In this document: positions 10,125-58,233 of the stretch, in pieces
Layout: each line of letters opens with the position of its first letter
Position numbering within the stretch: position 1 is the stretch's first letter
Assembly (NCBI GenBank): GCA_017395635.1
Contig: JAFQOE010000053.1
Span: forward strand, 1-58,549
From: Lachnospiraceae bacterium
Lineage (GTDB): Bacteria; Bacillota; Clostridia; Lachnospirales; Lachnospiraceae
Length of the DNA stretch: 58,549 nt
Direction of reading: 5' to 3'
Notes under the pieces: generated by a model
The model's database searches: none
Seen by the model: the letters and a program-made list of their open reading frames with translations, nothing else
What the model was told of the DNA's origin: nothing
Made by a program: the position numbers and the translations under genes

Positions 10125-10127
10125 CTC

Positions 10128-12356: not shown

Positions 12357-12397
12357 AAAATGAGCGAGCCTTGAAAAATCAAAGACTCGCTCATTTT
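12357..12397 (-). terminator. terminator of the tRNA-Tyr/tRNA-Leu transcript
   Basis: AAAATGAGCGAG (12357-12368) and CTCGCTCATTTT (12386-12397) are perfect complements around a 17-base loop. The symmetric A/T flanks make it usable on both strands. It follows tRNA-Leu by nine bases. Confidence 0.9.
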
Positions 12398-12405
12398 ACA
12401 ATTAC

Positions 12406-12492
12406 TGCCGGCGACCGGAATCGAACCGGTACGGGAGTATAAGTCCCGCAGGATTTTAAGTCCTGTGCGTCTGCCAGTTCCGCCACGCCGGC
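12406..12492 (-). tRNA. tRNA-Leu(TAA)
   Basis: The acceptor GCCGGCG (from 12492) pairs with CGCCGGC, with discriminator A at 12406. The anticodon stem-loop GGACT-TAA-AATCC gives anticodon TAA. A long variable arm (GCGGGACTTATACTCCCGT) and the TTCGATT T-loop are present, as expected of a class II leucine tRNA of 87 bases. No CCA is encoded. Confidence 0.96.
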
Positions 12493-12575
12493 ATTGTGAT
12501 GCCACACCTAGCTCCATAAGCTTACGGTTTCCGTTTCAGGCTACGTCTTACAACTAACCATCATCTGGCATTCAA

Positions 12576-12657
12576 TGGATGGAGGTGGATTCGAACCACC
12601 GAAGCAATATGCAGCAGATTTACAGTCTGTCCCCTTTGGCCACTCGGGAATCCATCC
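12576..12657 (-). tRNA. tRNA-Tyr(GTA)
   Basis: GGATGGA (from 12657) pairs with TCCATCC (12583-12577), with discriminator A at 12576. The anticodon arm CAGACT-GTA-AATCTG gives GTA. There is a variable arm with the bacterial tyrosine pattern and a TTCGAAT T-loop. It is probably co-transcribed with tRNA-Leu, about 80 bases downstream. Confidence 0.95.
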
Positions 12658-12737
12658 ATTTGTTCAGTTCAGTCATCAAATGACCGACTGTCATTATATC
12701 TCAACCACAATTAAATTGCAAGCGATTTTTACTCAAA

Positions 12738-14843
12738 TCACTCCGCCTTCAAAACAATAGCCGAGATCTTAGGCACAGAAACAAATAACTGATTATTCTC
12801 TACTGTATGAATCTTAGGTTCCAGAATATAGCCCTCTTCTGTTGTAAGAATCAACTGTTTCAGTGTATCTCCATTCATCATACCGAGGCGATCTACATTG
12901 AGGCTTAAGTTAACCTCTTCATAGTTGTTGTTCATCACAATGACCATCTTATCCTTACGGTTGAATCTTCCATAAGCAATCACCTTGTGTCCACCATGAA
13001 GAAACAACACAGAACCACGTTTTAACACTTCATTTTCCTTATGAATACGAATAATATCGCGATGGAACAAAATCAAATCTCTGTCCTCATATCCCCAAGG
13101 ATAGGTTCTTCGGTTATCCGGATCCGTCCATCCACACATACCAGCCTCATCACCATAATAAATGGTAGGTGCTCCCGGCCAAGTCATCTGAAACACAACC
13201 GCCTCACGAAGCACACCCTTATTCACATTCTCATTAGCCGCATCCGGTCCCATTGTATGGGTACGTCCCACACGACGATTGGTACGTGTCAAAAATCTTG
13301 AATGATCATGATTCGAAAGCTCATTCATAGCCACTTCCAAAGATTGTCTATGGAATCGACTCATATGGTGCCTCAAAGATCCAATAAATGCATCCGGATT
13401 ACCAAGCAAATCACCACGGAATTCGTCCGAGTGTTTTTCTACACCCGTCAAAAACCATGTGATTGGTTCCATAAATGCATCATAATTCATAACCGTATCC
13501 CACTGATCGCCCTTCAACCAATTATATGGATCTCCGTAATGCTCTGCCAAAATAATGGCATTCGGATTTGCTTCCTTTACCACATTTCTAAAATCTCTCC
13601 AAAACTTGTGATTAAACTCTTCTGAGTGTCCCAAATCCGCAGCAACATCCAATCTCCAACCATCTACATTATAAGGCGGAGAAACCCATTTGCGCCCTAC
13701 TTCTAATATATACTGATAAAGTTCTTCCGAACCTTCGTAATTCAACTTTGGTAATGTATCATGTCCCCACCAGCCATCGTAGGTTGGGTTATAAGGAAAT
13801 GCATACTCATCATGAAACTTGAAGAAATTGTGATAAGGACTATCCTGTGCCGGATAAGCTCCCTTTTCATATCCTTCCTGATTCTCATAAATCAATTCTC
13901 TATCCAGCCATTTATTAAAGGAACCACAGTGATTGAATACACCATCCAAAATAATTTTCATCCCGCGACGATGTACTTCTTCTACAAGTTCACGGAACAA
14001 TTCATTACTGGCTTCCAAATTCTCTTTATTGGTAACACGAGTAATATATCTGGTAGAATTCTTATTCAGCGTATCACCATTTTGCAGGCATTCGCCTTCA
14101 TCCTTCACAATACGGCCAAAATGTGGATCAATATAATCATAATCCTGAATATCATACTTATGATTCGAAGGAGATACGAAAATCGGATTCAAATAAAGAA
14201 CTTCAACACCCAAGTCCTGCAGGTAATCTAACTTATTCATAATACCCTGCAAATCACCACCGTAGAAACATCTAACATCCATGGAATCCGGATATTTGCC
14301 CCAATCCGTAACACGTTTAGTTCCCTCACCAATATAATAGTACTCATTATCTAACACATCATTGCTTTCATCACCATTACAGAAACGATCCACATAAATC
14401 TGATAGAAAATGGCACCTTTCGCCCAGTCAGGTGTTGTAAATCCCGGTGTAATCGCAAAATTATAAGTCGGATTCACACCTGTCTGCACACCAAGTTTAT
14501 TATAATAGCAAACAGAATTACCGGACACGATTTCAAAATAATACTCTATTCTTTCGTGTCCAACCGGAGGTAACGTATAGGCATAATAGTCAAACGCTTT
14601 GTCTGTTTCTTTTATTTCCATTTCATAACGTTCCCCATTACAAATTAAATATACAATATCCACATTGCTCTTTGCTGTACGGAATTTCAAAGTCACTTTG
14701 TCTTCCGGCATCGGCTCCTGCGGAATACAATAATCTCCTGTCCCATCACAAAACAGACATTCCGGACGTAATACCGGCTTATTATTAAAAACGTAATTCA
14801 ATATTTTTTGTGCTTTACTAGAACTCTTAAATGAGTAACTCAT
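12738..14843 (-). CDS. cytoplasmic GH13 alpha-glucan hydrolase (neopullulanase/maltodextrin glucosidase type)
   Basis: A 701-residue GH13 enzyme without a signal peptide, so it acts inside the cell on imported maltodextrins. Residues about 1-130 resemble the CBM34-like N-terminal domain found in neopullulanases. The barrel begins at AIFYQIYVDRFCNGD; the catalytic nucleophile lies in DGWRLDVA, the acid/base Glu in ILAEHYGD and the third acid in LSNHDHSRF. The C-terminal beta domain starts around residue 610. It likely hydrolyses alpha-1,4 (and perhaps alpha-1,6) bonds of dextrins, complementing MalQ and the phosphorylase at 26-34 kb. It is a single gene with its own promoter (14948-14976); the leader contains a GTAAC hairpin repeat 29 bases before the start. 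Confidence 0.93.
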   Translation of the reverse strand: MSYSFKSSSKAQKILNYVFNNKPVLRPECLFCDGTGDYCIPQEPMPEDKVTLKFRTAKSNVDIVYLICNGERYEMEIKETDKAFDYYAYTLPPVGHERIEYYFEIVSGNSVCYYNKLGVQTGVNPTYNFAITPGFTTPDWAKGAIFYQIYVDRFCNGDESNDVLDNEYYYIGEGTKRVTDWGKYPDSMDVRCFYGGDLQGIMNKLDYLQDLGVEVLYLNPIFVSPSNHKYDIQDYDYIDPHFGRIVKDEGECLQNGDTLNKNSTRYITRVTNKENLEASNELFRELVEEVHRRGMKIILDGVFNHCGSFNKWLDRELIYENQEGYEKGAYPAQDSPYHNFFKFHDEYAFPYNPTYDGWWGHDTLPKLNYEGSEELYQYILEVGRKWVSPPYNVDGWRLDVAADLGHSEEFNHKFWRDFRNVVKEANPNAIILAEHYGDPYNWLKGDQWDTVMNYDAFMEPITWFLTGVEKHSDEFRGDLLGNPDAFIGSLRHHMSRFHRQSLEVAMNELSNHDHSRFLTRTNRRVGRTHTMGPDAANENVNKGVLREAVVFQMTWPGAPTIYYGDEAGMCGWTDPDNRRTYPWGYEDRDLILFHRDIIRIHKENEVLKRGSVLFLHGGHKVIAYGRFNRKDKMVIVMNNNYEEVNLSLNVDRLGMMNGDTLKQLILTTEEGYILEPKIHTVENNQLFVSVPKISAIVLKAE

Positions 14844-14871
14844 ATCTATCCTCCACCATGATAGGTATCTT

Positions 14872-14900
14872 CGTAACCATTCAGTACCTTCATAGTTACG
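14872..14900 (-). repeat. GTAAC hairpin repeat, copy in the GH13 leader
   Basis: CGTAACCAT (14872-14880) and ATAGTTACG (14892-14900) form a stem with one mismatch around TCAGTACCTTC. In the transcript (minus) the loop reads GAAGGTACTGA. It starts 29 bases 5' of the GH13 start codon. See the copies at 21863, 41407 and 42093. Confidence 0.75.
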
Positions 14901-14947
14901 ATATCTTCTTAATTTTATTCATGTAACCTAACGCTCACACTTTTGTT

Positions 14948-14976
14948 ATTTTACCTTATTTTTACAAATATAGCAA
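14948..14976 (-). promoter_or_regulatory. promoter of the GH13 gene
   Basis: Minus-strand TTGCTA (14976-14971) and TAAAAT (14953-14948) with a 17-base spacer. Predicted leader is about 98 bases. Confidence 0.65.
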
Positions 14977-15044
14977 CCATCTGTCCGTGAGCAGGTCCCC
15001 ATCATCCAATTTGCCTCTTCCATGCATGGCGTATTTACAAACAA

Positions 15045-15150
15045 GTAAAAAGGACAGCCAACCGATCGACTGTCCTTTCTGGAGAAGGTATTTTTTTGTT
15101 ACTTATGGGGTGTAGCAAAAAAACTATATAATGTATTGGGGGGGTTACAA
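15045..15150 (-). ncRNA. candidate small RNA of about 105 bases with C-rich tracts
   Basis: There is no gene in 14844-15420. On the minus strand TATAAT (15161-15156) has TGAACA 18 bases upstream, which would start RNA near 15149. About 70 bases later a nine-pair hairpin (AAAGGACAG/CTGTCCTTT, 15078-15049) followed by TTTTACTTG forms a clean terminator. The predicted RNA contains seven consecutive C, then CACCCC and CCTTCTCC; such C-rich tracts are how several Firmicute small RNAs pair with Shine-Dalgarno sequences. The alternative is that this is simply the long 3' end of ftsH with its terminator. Confidence 0.4.
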
Positions 15151-15420
15151 GTATTATTATATCCATTTCACTTAAAAAGTGTTCACAAACATTCATTTAT
15201 TTTTAAGAAAGTTTTGTGCAAAACATCAAAAGCAGTTGGGAATAACCCCTTTTCCTCCTCTTTTTTTGTACACATTGCTCAACCACAGCATTTTACTCGT
15301 CTTTTTTTATCAAAATGCACAATACTCTCCAGCCAAAATAGCTGTTGCAATTTTAAAAAATAATCATTTTTTATAAAATAATAACGTCCATTCCTTGCAT
15401 AACCCTACAAATTTTGAAAA

Positions 15421-17265
15421 TTATGCCTGTACTTCATCAAACAGAGACTCAAACTCTTCTCTATCGATACGTTCCTTCTCAAGCAAACGTTCCGCACAAA
15501 GATGCAATACCGCTACATTGTCTTCCAAAATCTTTTTCGCTGCAACATAACACTCATCCACAATACATTTTACCTCTCGGTCAATTGCAGATGTTGTTTG
15601 TTCACCTAAGATCTTACGATGTCCGATATCTCTTCCAACAAATGTTTCCTCTTCATTCTCTGTTTCATAGTTAACCAAGCCCAACTCATCCGACATACCA
15701 TATTGTACAACCATAGCCCTTGCTGCCGCTGTTGCCTGCTTAATATCCTGATATGCACCGGTTGTAATATCGTCCATAACCATCTCTTCCGCAATACGTC
15801 CACCAAGACTCACCTTAATATCCTGTAAAATCTTACCCTTTGTATTGAACACATTATCATTTTCCGGAAGCGGCATCGTATAACCTGCTGCACCCTGTCC
15901 TGTTGGAATAATTGACACAGTATACACCGGTCCAACTCCCTCTAGTAAATGGAACAAAATCGCGTGTCCAGCCTCATGATAAGCAGTAATACGGCGTTCT
16001 TTCTCCGGTACAAGACGTGACTTTCTCTCCGTACCGATACCAACCTTAATAAATGCTTTATCCACATCTTCCTTGATAATAAACTTACGATTATCCTTAG
16101 CAGCACTAATCGCTGACTCATTCATCAGATTCTCCAAATCAGCACCCGCAAAACCTGCGGTTGTTCTTGCAATCTCATGCAAATCTACATCTTCACTCAA
16201 TGGTTTCTTCTTAGTATGAACCTTAAGAATCTCTTCTCTTCCTTTCACATCCGGTCTGCCAACATTAATCTTACGATCAAAACGACCCGGACGAAGAATT
16301 GCCGGATCCAAAATATCCACACGGTTAGTTGCTGCCAACACGATAATTCCTTCGTTAACTGAGAAACCATCCATCTCTACCAACATCTGATTCAACGTCT
16401 GCTCACGCTCATCATGTCCACCACCAAGACCGGTACCTCTTCTTCTTGCTACTGCGTCAATCTCATCAATGAAAATGATACATGGCGCGTTGCGTTTTGC
16501 CTCCGCAAACAAATCTCTTACTCGAGATGCACCAACACCAACAAACATCTCCACAAAATCAGAACCCGAAATTGTAAAGAATGGCACATGTGCTTCTCCT
16601 GCCACAGCCTTTGCAAGCAAAGTCTTACCGGTTCCCGGAGGACCCACCAATAAAATGCCCTTTGGAATTCTTGCACCCAACTCAACGTACTTACCCGGAC
16701 TCTTCAAGAAATCAACCACTTCTTCCAAATCCTCTTTTTCTTCTCTAAGACCTGCAACATCTTCAAAAGTAATCTTGTTATCTGCTTCTGATGTCATCCT
16801 TGCACGACTCTTTCCAAAGTTGGCCATGGCACCACCACCATTACCGGCTCCCTGCATGCCAACCATTAACACCATAAACACTATAAACGCAATCAAACCT
16901 ACAATATATGGCAACGTTTTCTCCAGAAGGGTCGGACGAGCCACGTCACTCATCTGGAATTTTATATCAGAATCTTTATCCACCAACTCATTGTAGAAAT
17001 CTTGAAACTCATTCACATCTGTGATATAGAAGATTACTTTGGAATAATCTTTCATAGCAACTTCTACTGTACCCGTCGGTACCTCTGCGTTTTGTCGAAC
17101 ATAAACACTTGTTACATTACCTTTTTTCACATCTGTTGCGAATTTCGTTTCTGTATAAGTCATGTCTACATTTTGATTTCCATTCTGAATCAGTATAATC
17201 ACACCAAAAATAAGTGCAAAGAGAATCAGATAAGATATCAAACTTCTTTTCACGTTCTTATTCAT
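15421..17265 (-). CDS. ftsH: ATP-dependent zinc metalloprotease FtsH
   Basis: A 614-residue membrane AAA+ protease that extracts and degrades membrane and short-lived regulatory proteins. Two membrane helices (about 10-27 and 117-137) flank an extracytoplasmic domain. The AAA module has Walker A GPPGTGKT (208-215), Walker B IIFIDEID (263-270) and the second region of homology ending RPGRFDR. The protease domain has the zinc motif HEAGH (430-434). The Gly-rich [10 protein letters not shown] after the second helix is typical. It is the last gene of the spoIIE-tilS-hpt-ftsH run, an order conserved from Bacillus. No missing residues were noticed. Confidence 0.98.
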
Positions 17266-47119: not shown

Positions 47120-47473
47120 TCACATCTTCTTCATCTCTACCATAGCCTGAGCGTACCCCATCAATCTTTCCTGTTCGCCCAGACTCAAATTATGGTAATG
47201 TTCCAACAACAAACCATCTCTTGAGGTCTTATCTACAACAAGATATTCTATACTCCGTCCTCTATTGCCTTCTGCCTCTATACCGGATAACAAGTAAGTC
47301 GGAGTAACTTGTAATGTATGACATATAATCATAATCTTATCAGATGCCGGATTGGTATTCTTCTTTCTCCAATCACTAATCGTACTTTGTGGTATTCCTG
47401 TTGCATCCGAAAAATTCTTCTGAGACATACCACGTAATGCTAATAATTCAAAAATACGTTCACTTATTGTCAT
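47120..47473 (-). CDS. XRE-family helix-turn-helix regulator
   Basis: A 117-residue regulator. An N-terminal helix-turn-helix (about 1-62: ISERIFELLALRGMSQKNFSDATG, then PQSTISDWRKKNTNP) is followed by a short C-terminal region without a known domain. The start at 47473 has GGAGAG upstream and overlaps the end of the Rpn remnant by 14 bases, so it is read in the same transcript. Regulated genes unknown; autoregulation or the surface-protein gene are possible. Confidence 0.85.
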   Translation of the reverse strand: MTISERIFELLALRGMSQKNFSDATGIPQSTISDWRKKNTNPASDKIMIICHTLQVTPTYLLSGIEAEGNRGRSIEYLVVDKTSRDGLLLEHYHNLSLGEQERLMGYAQAMVEMKKM

Positions 47474-47980
47474 ACAATCTCTCCACTTTTGTTTCAATCA
47501 AGGACATCAGTTCCTTGCATATCGCATCCACATCGTAATCCGGTTCATAATTCTTCACAACATCCACAATATGCTTAATTACTTCCTCTGTCTCTTCTAA
47601 TTCTTCAGTCATCTCAGGAATTGTTTTACCTCGCTGCAACTTTTTCAAAACCTGATGTATTAAAGTCCTTAATGAACCTTCTGCTCGACCTTCTGCTCGA
47701 CCTTCTGCTCGACCTTCTGCTCGACCTTCTGCCAACCCTTCTTTTCGCGCTTCTGCCATAGTTTCATCCAGCAAAATCTGTAACGTCATGTATTCTCGCC
47801 TCCATTCATTACTTGCCTTGACTTTTTCAACCTCTTCCTGCAGTTCCTCTGCGAATGCACCTTCCGCAGCTAAGCCATTAAATATCTTGACAACCTGCTT
47901 AAACTCATCGTTCACATCACCTTGCTAAAAATAAAGTTGTCCGCTATTGTCAACTCATCAAACTTCTTCGTAGTCCTCAT
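47460..47980 (-). pseudogene. Rpn-family (PD-(D/E)XK) gene with a large internal deletion
   Basis: Full-length members are about 300 residues. Here the gene starts well (ATG at 47980, GGAGGAAGAAT upstream) with the family N-terminus MRTTKKFDELTIADNFIF, but stops after 22 codons (TGA). The sequence then jumps, in another frame from 47915, to the family C-terminus: EWRREYMTLQILLDET, a run of EGRA repeats, and a coiled tail. About 200 codons holding the nuclease domain are missing. A GTG at 47915 could still give a 151-residue fragment. Rpn proteins are known to promote RecA-independent recombination and are often in repeated copies. The leader is duplicated at 57590-57818. Confidence 0.88.
47677..47736 (-). 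repeat. 12-base tandem repeat in the Rpn remnant
   Basis: CCTTCTGCTCGA occurs four times exactly (47677-47724), followed by a diverged fifth unit. It encodes repeated EGRA on the minus strand. Such arrays vary in copy number by slippage. Confidence 0.95.
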
Positions 47981-47993
47981 ATTCTTCCTCCTT

Positions 47994-48022
47994 ATTATAT
48001 TAAATTATTATTCTCAATGCAA
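47994..48022 (-). promoter_or_regulatory. promoter of the Rpn remnant (repeat copy A)
   Basis: Minus-strand TTGCAT (48022-48017), 17-base spacer, TATAAT (47999-47994), followed by GGAGGAAGAAT and the Rpn ATG. Confidence 0.75.
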
Positions 48023-48135
48023 CCTCTGTTTTTCAAATTAAATTCTATTATACGGATTTGTTTTGTATATAATACCACTGCCGCATGTATTCGTCAATAA
48101 GTCATCATCCTATTATACGGATTCGAACGGCATAA

Positions 48136-48190
48136 TAAAAACCAATTGTATAACTCTTGTCATTCAAACACCTTAATTACACAATTGGTT
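48136..48190 (-). terminator. terminator in repeat copy A, end of the glycan operon
   Basis: On the minus strand AACCAATTGTGTAA (48190-48177) pairs with TTATACAATTGGTT (48153-48140, one G-T) around a 23-base loop and is followed by TTTTATTATG. Confidence 0.85.
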
Positions 48191-48195
48191 CTTTT

Positions 48196-48615
48196 CTACA
48201 CTTTCTTACACAACACGCAAAACACCTTCGCAAGATTTCTCGGCTTATCCACATCGCATCCCTTTGCAACCGCAACATAATATCCAAATAACTGTAAGGG
48301 AATTACAGTTAGCGATGCTGCAAATAGAGGATTGCATCTTGGAACATACACAACAAATTGTGCCGTATCCTCTAGCTCAATATGATCTTTATTGGTTACT
48401 GCAAATATATATCCGCCTCTGGATTTCACCTCTACCACATTACTGATTGTCTTCTCATAAAGGTCAGGCTGTGAAGCAATTGCAACACAGAGCATACCAT
48501 CTTCAATCAAAGAAATACTTCCGTGTTTTAATTTACCTGCCGTATATGCTTCCGAATGAATGTAAGAGATTTCCTTTAACTTTAATGAACGCGACATGAT
48601 ATACAACATTCCCAT
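48196..48615 (-). pseudogene. glmS: 3' fragment of glmS (glucosamine-6-phosphate synthase), isomerase end only
   Basis: A 139-residue open frame matching only the last quarter of GlmS (about 608 residues): SLKLKEISYIHSEAYTAGKL, KHGSISLIEDG, VIPLQLFGYYVAVAKGCDVD, KPRNLAK. The glutaminase domain and first sugar-isomerase domain are absent, so it cannot make glucosamine 6-phosphate. The native ending (SVTVE) is replaced by VFCVLCKKV, the same tail as the VanZ-like protein at 57781, because the frame runs into the direct repeat. The ATG at 48615 shares one base with the stop of the acetyltransferase gene, so it is still translated or coupled. It looks like a recombination scar. Confidence 0.88.
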
Positions 48616-49118
48616 CAAACATCAACTCTTTTTTTCACTTCGTACCAAAGATATTTTTCTATTTGATCTGTTGTATACCCTCTAATTATAGATTCTTTTT
48701 CCACATCAAATTTTTGATACCCATTCTTATCATAAAAGCGCACTGCTCTTTTATTATCAGGGGATACGCACCAAAAAATTCTTTTTAGATTTAACTCTTC
48801 CAAGCCGATGCGGATAATCTCTTCCATCGCATACTTAGAATATCCTTTTCCCATGGCAACATTTCGTATTGTAATCGCAAATTCTGCATCTATATCTGTA
48901 ATATGTTTTAAACTAACAGTTCCCATATAAATATCATTCTCATCTACAATTGCCAAATGCATATCGCTTTGGTCATTCTCCGATGCATCAATAAATCTTT
49001 CACAATCCTCAACTGTTTTTTCAGCAAAATTTGCTTGCAAGTTTTCCACAATGGATTCATCCTGCATCCACTCAAACATAAATGGTGCATCTTGTTGCTT
49101 TAGTTTTCTCAATTTCAT
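48615..49118 (-). CDS. GNAT-family N-acetyltransferase of the glycan operon
   Basis: A 167-residue RimJ/RimL-type acetyltransferase. It has KLRKLKQQDAPFMFEWM at the start, the acetyl-CoA loop VAMGKGYSKYAMEEIIR, and AVRFYDKNGYQKF near the end. In operons with a sugar 3- or 4-aminotransferase, such enzymes usually N-acetylate the nucleotide-linked amino sugar (as PseH or FdtC do), which fits the DegT-type aminotransferase at 56442. An alternative is acetylation of an aminophosphonate, less likely because the pathway here ends in a hydroxy compound. The ATPase-free fold and 55-base gap to the decarboxylase gene indicate the same transcript. Confidence 0.87.
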   Translation of the reverse strand: MKLRKLKQQDAPFMFEWMQDESIVENLQANFAEKTVEDCERFIDASENDQSDMHLAIVDENDIYMGTVSLKHITDIDAEFAITIRNVAMGKGYSKYAMEEIIRIGLEELNLKRIFWCVSPDNKRAVRFYDKNGYQKFDVEKESIIRGYTTDQIEKYLWYEVKKRVDV

Positions 49119-49172
49119 TTGTTGAATTCCTTCCTCTCAATCAGCAAACCATCCTTGTCATGCAAATTTGTA

Positions 49173-50294
49173 TTATAATTTTGCTATATATTTCATAAAA
49201 CATTCTTTATTTTCATGTGCTGTAGTTGTAGGTCTTCCCAAATTTTCTCTAGCACCCAAGGAACATTTCACCTCTATCATACTCAACGTATTTCTATTTT
49301 TAACCTTAGCAAGTTCTATATCTAAATCATCAAAATTGTCAACAGATACCGCATATGGATAACCACAAGCTTTTGCAATGGAAACCATATCAATATTGGC
49401 CGCTACAGTAGGCATTCCTCCCACCGTTTCATGAGCACTATTATTTATTATTATATGTACCATATTGTTAGGTGCATTTGCTCCAAGTACTGCCATAGAA
49501 CCCATATGCATAAGGACTGCGCCATCGCCGTCAATACACCATATTTTTGCATTAGGCTTATTAATAGCCACCCCTAATGCGATTGAGGAACTATGTCCCA
49601 TCGAACCAACGGTAAGAAAATCATATTGATGACTTTGTCCATTAGATTCTCTAATTTCAAAAAGTTCTCTGCTTGCTTTACCTGTAGTAGAAATAATAGG
49701 ATCTTCTCCTGAAAATGTAACAATATGATTAATTATATCTTCACGAAGCAACTGATTATCATTGGCATACTCTACTTTATTGTCATAAGATAACGCACCC
49801 TTTCTTATAACAAAAGCAACATTCTTTCCTTTATCAAGAACAGGCTTGAACTTCTCCATAGCAGAATTCAATTCTTCCTCTGTAGTATCTTTCCCTACTA
49901 CAAAAGTCTTGATATCCATATCCTCCAAAAGTTTCAAAGTCACTTCTCCCTGATATATATGTTGAGGCTCATCATGTACTCCAGGCTCTCCTCTCCATCC
50001 CACAACAAATATAACCGGAATTGCATATACTTTATCATTTAACAGTGATGCAATAGGATTAATAACATTACCCTGTCCGGAATTTTGCATATAAACGACA
50101 GGAACTTTATTAGTGGCTAAATGATAACCTGCAGCTATAGCTGTACAATTTCCTTCGTTCGCAGCAATCAAATGATGCTCTTTATCAATTCCATAAACAT
50201 CCATCAGATAGTCACATAGTGCTTTAAGTTGAGAGTCTGGAACTCCTGTATAAAAATCTGACCCTATAATTTCAACAAATTTTTCTACTTTCAT
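49173..50294 (-). CDS. ppd: phosphonopyruvate decarboxylase
   Basis: A 373-residue thiamine-diphosphate enzyme converting phosphonopyruvate to phosphonoacetaldehyde, the irreversible step that pulls the unfavourable PEP mutase reaction. The family N-terminus SDFYTGVPDSQLKALCDYL and AANEGNCTAIAAGYHLAT (the catalytic Glu) are clear, followed by YMQNSGQGNVINPIASL and GWRGEPGVHDEPQH. The ThDP/Mg motif is IDGDGAVLMHMGSMAVLG ending in NNSAHETVGG. No Shine-Dalgarno lies at normal distance; AAAGGAAAG is 28 bases upstream and is separated by a small hairpin. It follows the alcohol dehydrogenase gene in the operon. Confidence 0.96.
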   Translation of the reverse strand: MKVEKFVEIIGSDFYTGVPDSQLKALCDYLMDVYGIDKEHHLIAANEGNCTAIAAGYHLATNKVPVVYMQNSGQGNVINPIASLLNDKVYAIPVIFVVGWRGEPGVHDEPQHIYQGEVTLKLLEDMDIKTFVVGKDTTEEELNSAMEKFKPVLDKGKNVAFVIRKGALSYDNKVEYANDNQLLREDIINHIVTFSGEDPIISTTGKASRELFEIRESNGQSHQYDFLTVGSMGHSSSIALGVAINKPNAKIWCIDGDGAVLMHMGSMAVLGANAPNNMVHIIINNSAHETVGGMPTVAANIDMVSIAKACGYPYAVSVDNFDDLDIELAKVKNRNTLSMIEVKCSLGARENLGRPTTTAHENKECFMKYIAKL

Positions 50295-50304
50295 AATTGT
50301 CTAA

Positions 50305-50331
50305 TAAGATTCTTATATCTTACTTTCCTTT
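50305..50331 (-). promoter_or_regulatory. ppd ribosome site with a hairpin spacer
   Basis: On the minus strand AAAGGAAAG (50331-50323) is followed by TAAGAT-ATAAGA-ATCTTA (50322-50305), a six-pair hairpin, and then ten bases to the ATG. If folded, the hairpin would bring the ribosome site to about ten bases from the start. Confidence 0.5.
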
Positions 50332-50389
50332 CTTTTTAGTCATAAAACCACATTACTTAGTTAATTACTCATATCTAATAAATAAACAG

Positions 50390-51502
50390 CTATAATATTT
50401 GTTTATATAACATTTTTATCGTATCATAATCCAATGCAATAGGATTATTTTTTAATCTATCAATATTCACAGAACTACTTAACCTCTCATAATCTCCTAT
50501 ATTCACCTTTGGATTTGTAAAATTAAGACTATCCACAAATTCACAAAATTTCTTAACTGCCTTATATTTGTCCTCACATCCCATAGAAGATGCTATATCC
50601 TTAAAAACAGAATTCATATATTCTTCACCTCTAACATCTATACACTTATCTGTATTATCAAGCATATATGCCCAAAGCTTAGAAAGACAAAGCGCCGCTG
50701 CATGTCCATGAGCAATACCATATAAACTGGTAATCTTATAACACATAGCATGTCCGGCTGTAGTCTGAGTAATGTTAATTGCTTTACCAGCTATATTCGC
50801 TGCTCTCAACATATTCGCATTACCTTCATCCTGATTAGCTAAATACGAATCTTTATTATTCATAATAATATGTATTGCTTCTTGAGAATAGCATTTACTT
50901 TCCTCTGTAGAATTAACAGACCAATATGACTCGATTGCATGACAAAGTGCGTCTAACATAGTTGCTTTCTTTTGATACTCCGGTAACGTCTTAAGCACAG
51001 ACGAATCCATAAGTACTGCTGAAGGTATACAACTATAATCTGTGACCGACTGTTTCTCTCCGTTATAATATATGACCGCATATCTTGTGGCTTCACTACC
51101 TGTTCCAGCTGTAGTTGGCACTGCAAACAACGGCACATCATTAGATACTATTCTCTGTTCAAGGTAATTAATCTCAGGATTCATATTCGAATAAAGCTTA
51201 ATGCATTTTGCAACATCCATAGCACTACCACCACCTATGGCAATAATCACATCGCAACACTTTTCTCTAAACAATTCAACACCTTTAACCACCGACTCAT
51301 ACAATGGATTAGGCTGAAAGTCACTGAATTTAATAATTCTAATTCCTATACGTTCTTCTACAGTTTCAAAATATCTATTAAGTCTTAAATAAGATATCGA
51401 ACCATCACATACAAGAAAAACGGTCTTAAAACCGTTTTTCAATATATAGTCATCCACTTCCTTATAGTTTTCACTTGCAATTAATATCTCTTGTTGATCC
51501 AT
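50390..51502 (-). CDS. iron-type alcohol dehydrogenase, probable phosphonoacetaldehyde reductase
   Basis: A 370-residue group III (iron-activated) alcohol dehydrogenase. NAD(P)-binding IIAIGGGSAMDVAKCIKLY, then AVPTTAGTGSEATRYAVI, and metal ligands in LDALCHAIESYW and ITSLYGIAHGHAAALCLSK. Members encoded next to PEP mutase and phosphonopyruvate decarboxylase (PhpC-type) reduce phosphonoacetaldehyde to 2-hydroxyethylphosphonate, and that is the assignment here from context. No aminoethylphosphonate transaminase is present, so hydroxyethylphosphonate rather than aminoethylphosphonate is the expected product. GAGG with a nine-base spacer sets the start. It lies 17 bases after the PEP mutase fusion. 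Confidence 0.92.
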   Translation of the reverse strand: MDQQEILIASENYKEVDDYILKNGFKTVFLVCDGSISYLRLNRYFETVEERIGIRIIKFSDFQPNPLYESVVKGVELFREKCCDVIIAIGGGSAMDVAKCIKLYSNMNPEINYLEQRIVSNDVPLFAVPTTAGTGSEATRYAVIYYNGEKQSVTDYSCIPSAVLMDSSVLKTLPEYQKKATMLDALCHAIESYWSVNSTEESKCYSQEAIHIIMNNKDSYLANQDEGNANMLRAANIAGKAINITQTTAGHAMCYKITSLYGIAHGHAAALCLSKLWAYMLDNTDKCIDVRGEEYMNSVFKDIASSMGCEDKYKAVKKFCEFVDSLNFTNPKVNIGDYERLSSSVNIDRLKNNPIALDYDTIKMLYKQIL

Positions 51503-51519
51503 AACGGTAAACCTCTTTA

Positions 51520-53529
51520 TTATTCTTCGTCAGGAATTAATGTAATAATATCCTTAAATGGCATACATACGTCATCGCATTCCTTTGCCCTATGGTTCTC
51601 AAGAATAAGCTCAGCAGCATTCTTCATAGCCGGAAAAGCAGTTCTAGTCAACTGATTAGCATAAATGACCACATTAACTCCCCTTTCCTTAAATTCCTCT
51701 TCCGTAACCATATTAAACGAAGTAGGAACTACTACAATAGGAGTTGCTGAATCTTTTTCTCTAAATTTTTCAACAAACTCAAATATCTCTGTCGGATCTT
51801 TCTTTCTACTATGTATCATAATTGCATCTGCACCAGCTTCAGAAAAAGCAAAAGCACGTTCCAATGCATCATCCATTCCCTGTTCAAGAATCAAACTTTC
51901 TATACGCGCACATATCATGAAATCCTTAGTTTTTTGAGCTTTCTTTCCTGCTCTAATTTTCTCACAAAAATCAGGAATGGAATCCTGTGTCTGCTGTACC
52001 TCTGTTCCAAACAACGAATTCTTCTTGAGGCCTGTTTTGTCCTCTATAATAATCATCGAAACACCCATACGCTCAAGAGTTTTAACTGTATACACAAAAT
52101 GTTCTGTAAGTCCGCCCGTATCTCCATCAAAAATAATCGGTTTGGTTGTAACCTCCATAATATCATCAATAGTACGAAATCTTGAAGTCATATCAACTAA
52201 TTCAATATCCGGTTTACCCTTTGCAGTTGAATCGCAAAGCGAACTAACCCACATAGCATCAAACTGTCTGGCTTCTCCATTCTGGTATATAATAGTATTC
52301 TCGACAATTAGTCCGGTTAAACCACTATGCGCCTCCATAACACTAATGGTCCCCTTCATATCAATAACTTTTCTAAGTCTTGCCCTTCTAATGTCCGGCA
52401 AAGATAAGTCAGCCCTAGCACGTTTCTCAAGTGCCTGATACTTATCATCCCTTGAATATGGATATTCTACAAGCTGTCCACCATATGTAGCTAAAACAGA
52501 AATAACTTCATCTCTTATAGGTTTTTGAAAGCCAGTCACCCAATCATCACCGTGAACAACATAGTCCGTCTTAAGCTCTTGCAAATTTTCCTTATAGCTA
52601 AGTGTTCTCTGTTCGACAACTTTATATACTCCAACGACATTCTCAAACATTACTTTTCTCTCAGAAAATGGCATAAGTGGAAATCTTCTATAACTAACTA
52701 CAGCCTCATCTGAAAGAACACCAATAATCAATTTACCTAATTTCTTAGCTTTTCTTATAATCTCAATATGTCCACTATGCAACATATCTGTTGAAAAGCA
52801 CATATACACTGTCTTATTTTCCAACTCTGCAACTCTTTCAGAAACCATTTTTAAATCCTCAGGATTATCAATCTCATTACATAGCATATCTTCAACATCT
52901 AATATCTGAATATTACATTTATCAGATACTTCATTCAAGGCATGTTCTGCATAGCACTTTTTGTTATCATTTTCACAAAATGTAACAATATTATCTAGCC
53001 ATACTTTCCAATCTTCCTTTAACAACTTGTACAGTGGCTGTGCAGCCATAGCACTATCAAAAAACTCAATACCAACCTTGTCCACTCTACCATCATAAAC
53101 AACCGCTTTAAAATCCTTCTCAGGCAAAGGCAGAGTCGAACTAACTGTCATACAACTCGTATCACTACTTACCACTTTGTCAAAAACCTGATTATCAAAC
53201 ACCAAATCACCATGCATAAGTATTATATCGTCATTCAAATATTCCCTAGCACAATAAATCGAGTAAATATAATTAGTACGATCATATACCGGATTCTTTA
53301 CAAAAGTAATATTTAACGCCAAATCTAACCCTTTACAATAATTAACCAACACCTCATCAAAGGCACCCGTGGTCATAATCACATCCGTAATGCCTGCATC
53401 CAATATCTGATGTAACTGACGACTTAAAATTGTTTCTTTACTTGAAATTTCGGTCATACACTTAGGATGTTCTGATGTAAGGACTCCCATCCGGCTTCCA
53501 ACACCTGAATTTAAAATAAGTGCTTTCAT
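51520..53529 (-). CDS. pepM: three-domain fusion: LicC-like nucleotidyltransferase, TagD-like cytidylyltransferase, PEP mutase
   Basis: A 669-residue protein starting at 53529 (GAGGAG nine bases upstream). Residues 1-235: NTP-transferase fold of the LicC kind (LILNSGVGSRMGVLTSEHPK, NPVYDRTNYIYSIY, acid in MHGDLVF). Residues 239-365: TagD/PCYT-like domain with H251-S-G-H254 (the HxGH motif) but, where relatives I remember have YTEGISST, this one has YPYSRDD, so activity is doubtful. Residues 385-669: PEP mutase with the diagnostic EDK(x5)NS motif (E496-D-K498 ... N504-S505) and MEAHSGLTGLIVENT. It makes phosphonopyruvate and may also activate the final phosphonate with CTP through the N-terminal domain. 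The two-domain CTase-PepM form is common; the extra N-terminal domain is notable. Confidence 0.93.
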   Translation of the reverse strand: MKALILNSGVGSRMGVLTSEHPKCMTEISSKETILSRQLHQILDAGITDVIMTTGAFDEVLVNYCKGLDLALNITFVKNPVYDRTNYIYSIYCAREYLNDDIILMHGDLVFDNQVFDKVVSSDTSCMTVSSTLPLPEKDFKAVVYDGRVDKVGIEFFDSAMAAQPLYKLLKEDWKVWLDNIVTFCENDNKKCYAEHALNEVSDKCNIQILDVEDMLCNEIDNPEDLKMVSERVAELENKTVYMCFSTDMLHSGHIEIIRKAKKLGKLIIGVLSDEAVVSYRRFPLMPFSERKVMFENVVGVYKVVEQRTLSYKENLQELKTDYVVHGDDWVTGFQKPIRDEVISVLATYGGQLVEYPYSRDDKYQALEKRARADLSLPDIRRARLRKVIDMKGTISVMEAHSGLTGLIVENTIIYQNGEARQFDAMWVSSLCDSTAKGKPDIELVDMTSRFRTIDDIMEVTTKPIIFDGDTGGLTEHFVYTVKTLERMGVSMIIIEDKTGLKKNSLFGTEVQQTQDSIPDFCEKIRAGKKAQKTKDFMICARIESLILEQGMDDALERAFAFSEAGADAIMIHSRKKDPTEIFEFVEKFREKDSATPIVVVPTSFNMVTEEEFKERGVNVVIYANQLTRTAFPAMKNAAELILENHRAKECDDVCMPFKDIITLIPDEE

Positions 53530-53615
53530 TTCATCACTCTCCTCTATCAACCGGTAATATATTATATTAATTCAAATTCCTTCTTTTTTTCAAAATAACA
53601 TACCCAAATATCAAT

Positions 53616-54875
53616 TTACTTATTTCTAATTATTTCATTTATTATATTATTTGTAGAATTCTGAATATCGTTTCCAAATACTTCTGCAATTATCTTTTGA
53701 CGTTTTTCTTTCATATAATCATTACCATTTTTTAATTGTATAATACGTTCTTCAAGTTCTTCCCTATTGTTTACCACATAACACCCCTCAACTATTTTTT
53801 TTGTGTCATCTTCTAACTCGAGATTCATATTAGATATGCAAAAAATAATAGGCTTCCCTAAAACGAAATATTCAACCATCACACTAGATATATCACTAAC
53901 TAACACAGAAGATTTAGAAAACGTTGATTCATATTGTGGATTAGTATCCAATTCTACGTTATGAATTTGCTCAATCTCTCGTTTAAAACTAGTAATCTCT
54001 TCTTGTGTCATCTCACCTGTAGCCAAAAAATTTTCAAAAGTAAGTGGATGTGGTCTAAAAAGAAAATCTATTTCCGGTGTTTTTTTTGCATATTCCAATA
54101 ACCACTTGTAATAATTAAAAAAATTACTGCCACCTAGACAAGCATCCGTACACCACCTTGGTGTCCATATTACCCTAAAATTATTTTTTGAAAAGTCCCA
54201 TGAATGCTCTATATTATCACTATTTTTTATAAATAATTCAAGTGTCGGAGATCCAAGGTATTTACTAACATTAATCTTTAATATATGTCCTAATCTCAAC
54301 TGCTTAATATTATAATTCATTGTACTTTCGCTCTCTGCAAAATAATAGTCAATATATCTAAAAAATTCTTTATTTAAAGTATGTTTTTTTACTTCCTGCA
54401 TTGTATTAATTGCATACAAAAGACAACAAGTCTTTGCATATTTACTTATATTTTTACTATAATATATCTCTGGCATAAAATAATTGTATGGTCTTATAAA
54501 AAAAACATAGTCTGGTGATAATTCTCTCAAATCAACCCACTCATTCTTTCCCTTTAAAGCATTAATAGCTTTATAGCCTTTTGAGATAAAATAATCATAT
54601 GTTTCATTACTTAAATCTTCAGCATTCTCTAATACAGAGTTCTTTATCCTATTCGGAATACATACTAACTCAACATCAAATTGAGGGTTTTCTAACATTT
54701 TATAATATACATATGCCACCTTATTCCATGTTTCTACAATTTGACATAAAAAAACAACTTTAATTCGCTCATGATTTACACATTTGTTTTTTCTATATTT
54801 ATTCATCCTTAGGATTGCAATAACATCCGATGTATACCCTTTTTTATCAATTTTCCCCAAAAGACTCTTCAACAA
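53616..54875 (-). CDS. CDP-glycerol glycerophosphotransferase-family (TagB/TagF-like) transferase
   Basis: A 419-residue soluble-looking transferase. The C-terminal half has the family signature: FRVIWTPRW, FLFRPHPLTF and VSDISSVMVEYFVLGKPIIF. Teichoic-acid enzymes of this family move a glycerol- or ribitol-phosphate from a CDP-alcohol to a lipid-linked glycan. No CDP-glycerol synthesis gene is present unless the TagD-like domain in the next gene supplies it; the adjacent phosphonate genes suggest the donor could instead be a CMP-phosphonate, for example CMP-hydroxyethylphosphonate (inference). The start is a TTG with AAGGAG upstream and is uncertain by a codon or more. Very AT-rich, unlike the housekeeping genes. 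Confidence 0.85.
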   Translation of the reverse strand: MLKSLLGKIDKKGYTSDVIAILRMNKYRKNKCVNHERIKVVFLCQIVETWNKVAYVYYKMLENPQFDVELVCIPNRIKNSVLENAEDLSNETYDYFISKGYKAINALKGKNEWVDLRELSPDYVFFIRPYNYFMPEIYYSKNISKYAKTCCLLYAINTMQEVKKHTLNKEFFRYIDYYFAESESTMNYNIKQLRLGHILKINVSKYLGSPTLELFIKNSDNIEHSWDFSKNNFRVIWTPRWCTDACLGGSNFFNYYKWLLEYAKKTPEIDFLFRPHPLTFENFLATGEMTQEEITSFKREIEQIHNVELDTNPQYESTFSKSSVLVSDISSVMVEYFVLGKPIIFCISNMNLELEDDTKKIVEGCYVVNNREELEERIIQLKNGNDYMKEKRQKIIAEVFGNDIQNSTNNIINEIIRNK

Positions 54876-54881
54876 ATCTTC

Positions 54882-56390
54882 TCATCTCCTTATTACAAAT
54901 TTATTTTTTATATATTTAAATTCATCTGTATTATAAAAGATCGTAACATTTATTCCTATTACAAATATAAATATCATCACACTTTTTATAATCAAACTAA
55001 CAAGAGTAATATCAAGTGATATTACACTACATATAATGAAACAAACTATATACTCTGCCAGAAAAACACAATAATATTTTATCAATTTGATAATATATTC
55101 CTTGCAATAATCATTATAATGTACATACAGTACAGTATAAATTCTAAATATTAATGTAATAATGTCCGCTATCAACGTCCCAACAATCGGACCAATTATA
55201 CCAAACGGAGTGATCAACCCAATTGATATTATTAGATTCAATGTCATGGATATAAGTTGTTGTTTCTTTAATACACTAAAATCGCCTATCACCTCCAATA
55301 ACATAGATAATGGCTGATACATACTATGTACAAAAAAATCTAAGGTCAATATTATCAAGAAACTTAATGATAATATATATTCTTTTCCATACCAAAATCC
55401 TACAAATTCATCCAACATACAAAATAATAGCACTCCACATATGGAAGAGTAGAAAAATTGTACAAGTTGAAAACTGTTCAAAAAGAACATGTGCTGTTTT
55501 TCTTCTTTTTGCTCTTGTACAACATTCCCGAAAGAAACCTTTACAACTCCAGCAATGATTGGTGCTATCAAAAATACTTGATTAGTTATAGTAAAATAAT
55601 TTGTATAGTATACTACCATTGTTAATCCAAGAAATGCTGAAATAATAGTATTATCTGTATTATTGAAAACAAATGCACCTATCTTATTAGGAATCAATTC
55701 TTTCATATTGTCCCCTAGTACTTTCATTTCGTTCTTGCTATAACCTTTGTACTGGGACAAATACTTATATTTTCCATCACACACATAACTAACTATTGCA
55801 TTTGACACAAAAGAATAGACAACATCAATAATTATATAAAGATAATAATTCTTCCAGAAAACAATAACCAGTATCTTTGCCATAGACGAGACAATGAATA
55901 TTATACTATCTATAATATTAGTAATATATACATCCTCTGTTGCGTGCAAAAAAAGTCTTTTATGAGCAAAGAAATAGGTAGATGCATTACTAATCACATT
56001 TATAATAAAAACTAATCTAATAAACTCTAACGAATAAGGGTTATCTTTGATTAAATATTGAATGAAAAAACTTAAGATAATACCAACTACAATCATCATA
56101 AGTCCAACTGTATTATATATCTTTTTTGCGGCATTAAGAAGTTTTGCTACTTTCTCATTATCTTTTTCAGCCAATGGTTTGTATAAATTATATTGCAAAG
56201 CCATTCCTAAACCCATATCAGCCAAGTTAAGCAACCCTAACAAATCTGTAAACAATGAATTCAAACCTAAAAGCTCTGAACTTAAGTAGATTAAAAAAAT
56301 CTTTCTAGTTATAAACGACAATACCACATTAAGCATTTTATATGCCAATGTATAACCTGAGTTACGCATTATCTTCTTTGAATGAGACAT
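54882..56390 (-). CDS. wzx: oligosaccharide flippase, Wzx family
   Basis: A 502-residue membrane protein with about 12-14 helices and the Wzx/MATE-like N-terminus (SGYTLAYKMLNVVLSFITRK, then LGLNSLFTDLLGLLNLADMG). It would flip an undecaprenyl-linked repeat unit across the membrane for surface polymer assembly. GAGG lies ten bases before the start. It is followed by the TagB/F-like gene after six bases. Strongly AT-rich, suggesting acquisition with the rest of the island. No Wzy polymerase or glycosyltransferase gene of ordinary type is in the operon. Confidence 0.93.
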   Translation of the reverse strand: MSHSKKIMRNSGYTLAYKMLNVVLSFITRKIFLIYLSSELLGLNSLFTDLLGLLNLADMGLGMALQYNLYKPLAEKDNEKVAKLLNAAKKIYNTVGLMMIVVGIILSFFIQYLIKDNPYSLEFIRLVFIINVISNASTYFFAHKRLFLHATEDVYITNIIDSIIFIVSSMAKILVIVFWKNYYLYIIIDVVYSFVSNAIVSYVCDGKYKYLSQYKGYSKNEMKVLGDNMKELIPNKIGAFVFNNTDNTIISAFLGLTMVVYYTNYFTITNQVFLIAPIIAGVVKVSFGNVVQEQKEEKQHMFFLNSFQLVQFFYSSICGVLLFCMLDEFVGFWYGKEYILSLSFLIILTLDFFVHSMYQPLSMLLEVIGDFSVLKKQQLISMTLNLIISIGLITPFGIIGPIVGTLIADIITLIFRIYTVLYVHYNDYCKEYIIKLIKYYCVFLAEYIVCFIICSVISLDITLVSLIIKSVMIFIFVIGINVTIFYNTDEFKYIKNKFVIRR

Positions 56391-56441
56391 AATAACTATT
56401 CCTCTTTCTTAAAAATATATACTACTATTTTTTGCATATAT

Positions 56442-57536
56442 TCAAACATTATTAATAACATCAACAACATAACTTATCTCTTCATCGCTCATACCATAAT
56501 ACATCGGCAAGCTAAGTTCTGTTGCACTTATTTCCTCCGCTATTGGTAGCTCACCTTCAGCAATCCCCAAATCCGCATAACAGTCTTGCATGTGCATCGG
56601 AATCGGATAGTGCTTGTTAGTTCCTATACCATTATCATTTAGATATTTCTCAAAGTGAGGTCTATCTTTACATCGCACTCCAAAGATATGCCATACCGGC
56701 ATTACATCCTCTCTTACGGCAGGAAGAATAATGTCTTTATTCTTAATTTCGCTCAAATATCTATTAGCAATTCTTCGTCTTTCCTCATTCATTCTATTCA
56801 TATGAGGTAATTTGACAGATAAAAACGCAGCCTGAAGTTCATCTAATCTTGTGTTAGTACCTTTGTAAATATGATGATACTTGTAATCGGAACCATAATT
56901 TCCTAGTGCTCTAACTTTCTTGGCTAATTCTTCATTATTGGTAACAACCGCTCCTGCATCCCCTAATGCTCCCAAATTCTTTCCAGGATAAAAACTGAAG
57001 CCTGCAGCATCACCAAAACTACCTACAACTTTACCTTTGTAGATTGCACCATGCGCTTGAGCACAGTCTTCTATAACATACAATTTATCTTTCCTTGCAA
57101 TTTCCATAATTGGATCCATATCACAAGGTTGTCCATAGAGATGAACCGGTATTATCGCCTTAGTCTTATCTGTAATTTTCTCTTCAATTCTAATCGGATC
57201 AATATTAAATGTATCGATAATCGGCTCAACAAACACAGGAGTAGCACCCACATAAGTCACTGCAAGAGCAGTCGCAATATATGTATTAGAAGGAACAATA
57301 ACTTCATCCCCTTGTCCTATCCCCAATGCTTTTAAAGGGAGCACTAATGCATCCAAACCATTTCCTGTTCCTACGCAAAACTTTGTATCACAAAATTCGG
57401 CAAATGCTTTTTCAAAACATTCATCTTCTTTTCCTTCTATGTACCAGCTGTTTTCAAAAACTTTATCAAATGCGGCTCTTAATTCTTCACTTAATTCTCT
57501 TTCCATGGGTTTAAAACTTACAAAAGGTATCTTCAT
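56442..57536 (-). CDS. DegT/DnrJ/EryC1 sugar aminotransferase (FdtB/QdtB-like)
   Basis: A 364-residue PLP-dependent aminotransferase that would aminate a nucleotide-linked keto sugar. PLP lysine K186 in [17 protein letters not shown]157 and Q160 in [10 protein letters not shown], and the N-terminal [19 protein letters not shown] and NSWYIEGKE resemble FdtB/QdtB, which act on dTDP-3-keto-6-deoxyhexoses. The keto sugar synthesis genes (rfbAB, isomerase) are not here. It is the first gene of the glycan operon: AAGGAG precedes the start, and the promoter in repeat copy B lies about 110 bases upstream. The GNAT gene at the operon's end may acetylate its product. Confidence 0.92.
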
Positions 57537-57589
57537 CTTGCTTTTCTCCTTGCACTTTTCTCTATCCCTGCAATTCTTTATAAATTCAA

Positions 57590-57630
57590 AAAACTCATCG
57601 TCATCTCATCAAACTTTTTGTAGATCTCAT
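57590..57630 (-). pseudogene. 5' remnant of an Rpn-family gene in the glycan-operon leader
   Basis: The ATG at 57630 (GGTAGGAAGAAT upstream) begins MRSTK, matching MRTTK of copy A. A one-base deletion then shifts the frame, giving a nine-codon ORF ending in TGA; in the corrected frame the homology (KFDEMT) lasts about 14 codons and ends near 57590. It is an upstream mini-ORF of the operon. Confidence 0.8.
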
Positions 57631-57643
57631 ATTCTTCCTACCT

Positions 57644-57672
57644 ATTATATTAAATTATTATTCTCAACGCAA
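57644..57672 (-). promoter_or_regulatory. promoter in repeat copy B, likely driving the glycan/phosphonate operon
   Basis: Minus-strand TTGCGT (57672-57667), 17-base spacer, TATAAT (57649-57644). It is the Rpn promoter; with the Rpn body gone, the aminotransferase is the first complete gene downstream. Confidence 0.7.
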
Positions 57673-57720
57673 CTTCTGTTTACCAAGTTAAATTCTATTA
57701 TACGGATTCGAACGGCATAA

Positions 57721-57775
57721 TAAAAACCAATTGTATAACTCTTGTCATTCAAACACCTTAATTACACAATTGGTT
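57721..57775 (-). terminator. terminator of the VanZ-like gene (repeat copy B)
   Basis: Same 14-pair stem as copy A (57775-57762 with 57738-57725) followed by TTTTATTATG, five bases after the VanZ-like stop codon. Confidence 0.85.
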
Positions 57776-57780
57776 CTTTT

Positions 57781-58233
57781 CTACACTTTCTTACACAACA
57801 CGCAAAACACCTTCGCAACCAACAGATAAATCATGACTCCAACAACTACACCTGCAACATTCAACCACATTTCCTCCAGGTCAAAATGCCGTCCGGGAAT
57901 ATTCCATTTCCCTGCTTCTGTAACCACCGCCAAAAGAACTCCGGATACACCTGCCAACACCAGACATTTCCATCGCATTCTAATAAATTCGGTAGTTACT
58001 CCCATAGCAAACATACTATAAATGGCAAACAGTACCGGATGTGCTAACAAACGAAATGTCCTATGCCAATACTCCATGGTTTCATAATGGATGTCACCCT
58101 GTATAAATATGCCCAATATTAATTTGGTCAACCTCATACTGGTATCCGCCGTATCTCCTCCTGGTTGAAACGAAAGGTAGAGAATAAGAGCGATATAGAG
58201 AGCAAAAGTTATTAATAAAAGTGTTCGTTTCAT
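57781..58233 (-). CDS. VanZ-like membrane protein
   Basis: A 150-residue protein with about four membrane helices and the VanZ-family features RLLAHPVLFAIYSMF, then EAGKWNIPGRHFDLEEMWLN followed by VAGVVVG. The role of VanZ-like proteins is poorly known (teicoplanin resistance for VanZ itself); here it is more likely a general envelope protein. The last ten residues (KVFCVLCKKV) are encoded by the direct repeat and are shared with the glmS fragment; since they follow the last helix naturally, this gene is the probable original owner of that tail. Confidence 0.85.
   Translation of the reverse strand: MKRTLLLITFALYIALILYLSFQPGGDTADTSMRLTKLILGIFIQGDIHYETMEYWHRTFRLLAHPVLFAIYSMFAMGVTTEFIRMRWKCLVLAGVSGVLLAVVTEAGKWNIPGRHFDLEEMWLNVAGVVVGVMIYLLVAKVFCVLCKKV

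Follow-up and report, generated by a model that had tools for sequence, protein, structure and literature searches.

A candidate hydroxyethylphosphonate tailoring operon with a divergent TagF-like protein in a Lachnospiraceae genome

Genes of the operon

Our analysis concerns an operon on the minus strand of a contig from a Lachnospiraceae bacterium (JAFQOE010000053.1, assembly GCA_017395635.1), analysed as a stretch of 58,549 nucleotides that we call the window. A first-pass annotation had described there a candidate operon for a surface glycan decorated with 2-hydroxyethylphosphonate (HEP), and all the genes it named were located at 49173-57536. In minus-strand order the operon has a QdtB-type transaminase, a flippase-like gene, a TagF-like gene, a triple fusion ending in a phosphoenolpyruvate (PEP) mutase domain, an iron-type alcohol dehydrogenase (ADH), a phosphonopyruvate decarboxylase (PPD), a GNAT gene and a C-terminal remnant of glmS, the last two extending it beyond the span first described. 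Our results lean, somewhat beyond even chances, towards HEP tailoring of a surface glycan, in which the TagF-like protein would act as a LicD-like transferase of HEP activated with cytidine monophosphate (CMP-HEP). The genes that bear on this proposal are:

56442..57536, minus strand: QdtB-type sugar transaminase of the DegT family (PF01041, E 3.3e-116; closest match QdtB 3frk, E 1.8e-147)
54882..56390, minus strand: flippase-like membrane protein, 502 aa (11 transmembrane-like segments; weak match to the MOP flippase model NF007773, E 0.0097)
53616..54875, minus strand: divergent TagF-like putative transferase, 419 aa (PF04464 in its C-terminal part; GT-B model)
52831..53529, minus strand: N-terminal PntC/LicC-like nucleotidyltransferase domain of the fusion (PF12804; nearest structure PntC 6pd1, E 1.2e-9; motif G-x-G-S-R...PK)
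52396..52830, minus strand: middle Fom1-like cytidylyltransferase domain of the fusion (PF01467; nearest structure the Fom1 cytidylyltransferase 5x3d, E 2.2e-38; HSGH and HGDDW)
51520..52377, minus strand: C-terminal PEP mutase domain of the fusion (TIGR02320, 403.6 bits, cut-off 319.55; EDKTGLKKNS)
50390..51502, minus strand: iron-type ADH, putative phosphonoacetaldehyde reductase (PF00465, E 1.2e-38)
49173..50294, minus strand: PPD (TIGR03297, 457.6 bits, cut-off 312.5)

Most of the identities first given to these genes were borne out. PEP mutase, which carries the expected EDK-x5-NS motif, and PPD both exceed curated cut-offs, and they share the operon with the ADH; the cytidylyltransferase domains lie inside the fusion, and the amino-sugar transaminase is closest to QdtB. 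The ADH matches its Pfam family, yet stays below every NCBIfam equivalog cut-off; its S. copri relative (49% identity) lies in the same kind of cluster and has the record name phosphonoacetaldehyde reductase. The assignment as a flippase is based on the membrane-like segments and the weak MOP-flippase match; a Pfam search of this protein gave zero matches, and a PHROGs search returned nothing for it or for the TagF-like protein. The likely start of the triple fusion is the ATG at 53529, with GAGGAGAG upstream of it; this start lies about 86 bases past the end of the transferase gene.

Synthesis and activation of hydroxyethylphosphonate

The enzyme families suggest a route in which PEP mutase would make phosphonopyruvate, PPD would convert it to phosphonoacetaldehyde, and the ADH would reduce the latter to HEP. 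The recurrence of this triad points the same way. Genome contigs were scanned for relatives of the fusion, of which 209 were found; the best 80 of them, together with the window and S. copri, make up a set of 82 triple-fusion loci. These loci are partly non-independent, L073 and L097 sharing gene lengths. For comparison we used 20 Lachnospiraceae loci with a double fusion, in which PEP mutase is fused only to the middle-type domain; these are 20 of 27 length-matched loci, and four more matches of that length had no loci. By tblastn, the ADH was found in 74/82 triple-fusion loci and PPD in 73/82, whereas among the double-fusion loci the ADH was found in 2/20 (one of them merely 30% identical over 214 residues) and PPD in 16/20. 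Conversely, 14 of the 20 double-fusion loci have an aminoethylphosphonate (AEP) transaminase-like gene and 15 a gene of a PF12804-type cluster, one member of each of these two clusters having been checked by Pfam. Hence, the reductase accompanies the triple fusion and the transaminase the double one. In the window, a local profile found no AEP-transaminase-like gene within 10 kb of the fusion, in line with the absence first reported.

Eight of the triple-fusion loci have no detected ADH: L061, L097 and L113 are truncated by contig ends, a short-chain dehydrogenase adjoins the fusion in L110, and in L053, L087, L095 and L118 no ADH was found among the neighbours scanned. Nine have no detected PPD (L045, L061, L080, L084, L090, L091, L093, L097 and L113); of these, L045, L080 and L084 continue for about 10 kb downstream, so contig ends are not the cause in these three. 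One genome encodes two PEP-mutase fusions of triple length, one on each strand and about 12 kb from each other (G095:C1, 258639 and 270290; L121 and L126).

Activation would be the task of a cytidylyltransferase domain of the fusion, most likely the N-terminal PntC-like one, which would make CMP-HEP. Both domains keep their motifs over the 82 triple fusions: PK of the N-terminal domain and HGDDW of the middle one are each present in 81/82, and of the two histidines of HxGH the second is present in 82/82 and the first in 80/82. A tree of 45 nucleotidyltransferase rows joins the unfused nucleotidyltransferase of L151 and 15 sampled N-terminal domains of triple fusions in one clade (support 99/100), which stands apart from the nucleotidyltransferases of the other double-fusion loci; some branches elsewhere in the tree are long. 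L151 also has an ADH, at 40% identity. Because this type of domain follows the reductase, even in the one locus where it is unfused, the N-terminal domain is most likely the HEP-specific cytidylyltransferase. The survey thus bears on which of the two domains sets the phosphonate. The middle-type domain is common to triple- and double-fusion loci, and we rejected it as the sole marker of HEP loci, since it occurs in 20/20 double-fusion loci, 18 of them without ADH. A distinction between HGDDW and HGDNW as marker of specificity is likewise broken by L147 and L149 (HGDDW, no ADH found) and by L151 (HGDNW, with the ADH). The profile for stand-alone nucleotidyltransferases drifted onto the fusions, and length limits and the tree served instead.

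Domain content, the match to the Fom1 cytidylyltransferase and the recurring triad all support HEP synthesis and CMP activation as first proposed, and we regard it as very probable that HEP is made and activated by this operon. That it ends up on a surface glycan is also probable, if less so. This layer is not new, since earlier publications cover both triple fusions and polysaccharides that bear HEP. The phosphonoglycans of Glycomyces and Stackebrandtia are reportedly HEP-bearing polysaccharides. Marine dissolved polysaccharides also bear HEP esters (PMC5649143), as predicted here, but in other organisms and with no transferase named in the passages available from that paper. The nucleotidyl activation of phosphonates, to which the first-pass annotation had also pointed, was described together with PEP mutase fusions by Rice et al. 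2019 (PMC6697681), who counted 42 triple fusions among 1485 Ppm proteins and reported HEP as a substrate of the Fom1 cytidylyltransferase. The Pnt clusters of that work resemble the operon in that their PEP mutase is joined to one or two cytidylyltransferase domains and in having a CMP-activated phosphonate for surface use. In the passages available, AEP is the substrate of the enzymes that were characterised, whereas the partner genes here point to HEP, and the transferase candidates are LicD-like or glycosyltransferase genes, whereas ours is TagF-like. Fom1, of the fosfomycin pathway, also has a cytidylyltransferase fused to PEP mutase, with HxGH (HSGH here) and HGDDW; unlike it, the window fusion has the additional N-terminal PntC-like domain and a glycan-type gene context.

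The TagF-like protein and the transfer step

The label of TagB/TagF-like transferase stands only in part. The protein passes the PF04464 cut-off (43.3 bits against 22.1), but over merely positions 222-366 of the 367 of the profile, and its homologue in L074 scores 19.2, under that cut-off. The catalytic histidine motif of TagF is WHGxPxK. It is absent from the window protein and from 11 clade members (some canonical rows do not fit the strict pattern either), and RxH- and SDxSS-type motifs are kept (RPHP 274-277, SDISS 327-331). The tree places the window protein in a clade (100/99; 12 sampled proteins) separate from 11 canonical PF04464 proteins. With no WHGxPxK and in a separate clade, it is not an ordinary TagB/F; a further difference from TagF/TarL is that no maker of cytidine diphosphate (CDP)-glycerol exceeds the cut-off in the genome. 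Its predicted GT-B model has a pLDDT of 86.9; phmmer against solved structures returned nothing. Counting its own genome, the clade is rare: at E 1e-15 it was found in 6/391 genomes of the class and 16/397 of the family (4 of the latter above 200 bits), and at E 1e-40 in 2/398 of the phylum and 2/315 of the order.

Position beside the fusion gives the first argument for a role in transfer. A neighbourhood count of the kind suggested in the first-pass annotation used the 58 triple-fusion loci whose preceding position has a gene on the same strand that encodes 150 aa or more. A PF04464-family gene stands directly before the fusion in 10/58, against 6/546 at the other flanking positions minus the two of the triad (Fisher p 1.6e-7, in a test uncorrected for shared ancestry). 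In a 12-row alignment, the PF04464-family proteins share 13-38% identity with the window protein, and S. copri has a PF04464 gene within the same gene run. LicD at that position is marginal in the triple set (7/58 vs 29/546, p 0.047) and unenriched in the double set (1/20 vs 4/170). Among the 47 triple loci that extend for 8 kb or more on either side, 11 have TagF only, 12 LicD only, 2 both and 22 neither, a split that does not show mutual exclusion of the two families. Proteins of 630-700 aa with a YidC-type N-terminus (PF02096) also recur near PEP-mutase loci, with one cluster in 9/20 double-fusion loci; their C-terminus matches PF04464 in L135 (12134-14032) and L095 (711-2741), and a local profile only in L059 (14318-16240) and L090 (7475-9571).

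The second argument comes from the gene context of the histidine-less clade, counted in the 11 loci longer than 10 kb (the window, L043, L074, L185, L186, L188, L189, L190, L191, L207 and L208), outside which were left L187 (3.3 kb) and a Rahnella plasmid match (27% identity) that adjoins prophage genes. A cytidylyltransferase gene is present in the fetched stretch of 10/11, a descriptive figure without a background rate from random glycan loci. The type of this gene changes from host to host. A PEP-mutase fusion accompanies the clade member in the window, L043 and L188; in L074 the clade member precedes a LicC-LicA-like gene, the HEP triad being on the other strand; in L185 and L186 the nucleotidyltransferase is fused to a CobD-like or class I/II aminotransferase domain; and the remaining ones are TagD-type (L190), TagD-like (L208), IspD-type (L191) and LicC-like (L207). 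In L207, the TagF-like gene leads a lic-like operon (5784-10014), overlapping a choline-kinase-like gene by four bases and followed by EamA-type and LicC-like genes, and PF04991 (LicD) finds no match in this genome, which is a single contig and 99% complete. Because of this leading place and of the genome without LicD match, we read the clade member as standing in for LicD in L207. The window protein groups with those of L074 and L185 (100/99) instead of with the HEP member L043 (87/49, weak), which fits repeated changes of donor.

Three of these loci have further peculiarities. The fusions of L185 (10907-12721; CobD-like, 174 bits, cut-off 290.55) and L186 (1075-2907) join nucleotidyltransferase and class I/II aminotransferase and possibly make another CDP-activated amino alcohol; in L186, an Octopine_DH-type gene follows. 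The L188 locus (9323-16423) has a double PEP-mutase fusion, PPD, a QdtB-type transaminase, a GNAT-FdtA fusion, and flippase-like and TagF-like genes; an ADH of the window type was not matched in its stretch.

We therefore read the small clade as acting in a LicD-like way, with different CDP- or CMP-activated head groups in different hosts and, by its gene context, CMP-HEP here. The divergent TagF-like protein would move HEP from CMP-HEP onto a sugar, perhaps a QdtB-derived 3-amino-3,6-dideoxyhexose in a lipid-linked glycan that the flippase would then export; acceptor and transfer are the least certain steps. We hold it rather more probable than not that this protein performs the transfer. The phosphocholine transferases named in the available passages of PMC10434233 and PMC11982090 are LicD, PptA and the LicD-family Mf1. 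Lic-1 (licABCD, PMC10434233) shares the logic of kinase, permease and cytidylyltransferase with a head-group transferase, the clade member replacing LicD in L207; unlike Lic-1, the window operon has no PF04991 match and its predicted head group is a phosphonate. More broadly, and with rather less than even confidence, the clade could represent a GT-B family of phospho- or phosphonyl head-group transferases, unrelated to LicD in sequence and without the TagF histidine motif, that replaces LicD in a lic-like operon and takes CMP-HEP, CDP-choline and the products of the nucleotidyltransferase-CobD-like fusions as donors.

No association of TagF with phosphonate fusions was found among the open-licence papers listed by the literature searches, and the tailoring steps past C-P bond formation are termed enigmatic in Rice et al. 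(PMC6697681). Two kinds of candidate for transfer emerge from the survey: TagF-family proteins encoded immediately before the fusion, and the clade that lacks the histidine motif. If the proposal is true, such a head-group family would supply the transfer step that is still missing from part of the bacterial clusters for phosphonate tailoring. Related modules are found in S. copri DSM 18205, [Clostridium] symbiosum ATCC 14940 and Hungatella hathewayi DSM 13479.

The first proposal, that a TagF-family enzyme transfers the CMP-phosphonate, thus draws support from position and context, but the clade is not specific to phosphonates and a QdtB-type transaminase travels with it. Several observations weigh against it, besides the uncorrected ancestry and the missing background rate attached to the counts above. 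The double-fusion set has no enrichment of TagF at the preceding position (1/20 vs 8/170), and in 22 of the 47 triple loci the same strand has no TagF and no LicD within 10 kb. No cytidylyltransferase was found in the stretch of L189, and three genomes with homologues (G105, G296 and G167) are absent from the 53 PEP-mutase-positive ones. The proposed route accounts for just one of the two cytidylyltransferase domains in the fusion. Several clade loci have FdtA, which the amino sugar would lead one to expect, but none was found in the window. Finally, the QdtB-type transaminase occurs in 7/11 loci (the window, L043, L185, L186, L188, L189 and L208), and the list of similar structures is headed by uridine diphosphate N-acetylglucosamine (UDP-GlcNAc) 2-epimerases, with TarL and TagF tying with sugar enzymes.

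The last two points suggest the most serious alternative, that the TagF-like protein is the glycosyltransferase of the QdtB-type 3-amino sugar, the HEP genes being adjacent through cassette assembly and their transferase lying elsewhere. Four of the transaminase loci (L185, L186, L189 and L208) have no PEP mutase in the stretch, the GT-B fold lies near nucleotide-sugar enzymes, and no other glycosyltransferase was recognised among the operon proteins. Yet, the members in L207 and L074 adjoin choline-type genes and have no QdtB-type match, the fold list ranks TarL and TagF level with the sugar enzymes, and the TagF family is enriched directly before the fusion. We consider this alternative unlikely, at about one chance in several. 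The identity of a UDP-GlcNAc 2-epimerase, with which the fold alone is compatible, was not adopted in view of the PF04464 match and the gene context.

The protein might instead use CDP-ribitol from the teichoic acid genes of the host, or another CDP-polyol, with another enzyme attaching HEP. The own genome probably encodes a separate ribitol-type teichoic acid system, because its contig C74 has TarI-like, TarJ-like and ABC-transporter genes next to three further, canonical PF04464 proteins, and clade members are paired with the TagD-type and IspD-type genes of L190 and L191. However, the C74 proteins already serve that cluster, the CTP-using enzyme nearest to the transferase gene is the HEP fusion immediately past it, and no TagD over cut-off was found in the genome, the sole match being the fusion itself; likewise, LicD (PF04991) had no match in the operon or genome at E 0.001, such absences being provisional in an assembly 91.7% complete. 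Such use of a polyol is improbable. Still more so is a small secreted phosphonate without surface glycan, a product suggested by HEP being a fosfomycin-pathway intermediate and by the cytidylyltransferase-PEP mutase arrangement of Fom1 (PMC6697681), since no antibiotic tailoring genes were recognised among the operon proteins, the operon has amino-sugar and flippase-like genes, and related loci have glycan genes. The free hydroxyl that HEP retains makes it conceivable, though very improbable, that in sister loci the canonical relatives of TagF join HEP units into a polymer, a phosphonate counterpart of teichoic acid.

Flanks and origin of the cassette

The features at the edges of the operon are:

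48615..49118, minus strand: GNAT N-acetyltransferase, distantly PseH-like (PF13302; TIGR03585 under cut-off)
48196..48618, minus strand: glmS C-terminal (SIS) remnant, extending into the repeat (PF01380; PRK00331 positions 474-598 of 601)
57692..57818: direct repeat, upstream copy, 127 nt, 99%, covering the 3' end of a VanZ-like gene
48107..48233: direct repeat, downstream copy, 127 nt, 99%

The operon is bracketed by these repeats and by a second pair (92 nt, 89% identical), and its G+C content is low (0.329 at 48240-57690 against 0.382 at 1-48000), reaching 0.28 in the TagF-like and flippase-like genes. Because of this low G+C and of the flanking repeats, the operon is probably an acquired, mosaic cassette. 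No empty insertion site was found beside the two nearest VanZ relatives of the same genus. The repeat-bearing flanks span 47967-48233 and 57617-57818, and the glmS remnant runs in frame into a tail, FCVLCKKV, that it has in common with the VanZ-like gene. Beyond the downstream flank, an array of 12-nt repeats at 47664-47771, within an open reading frame at 47460-47915, encodes EGRA repeats.

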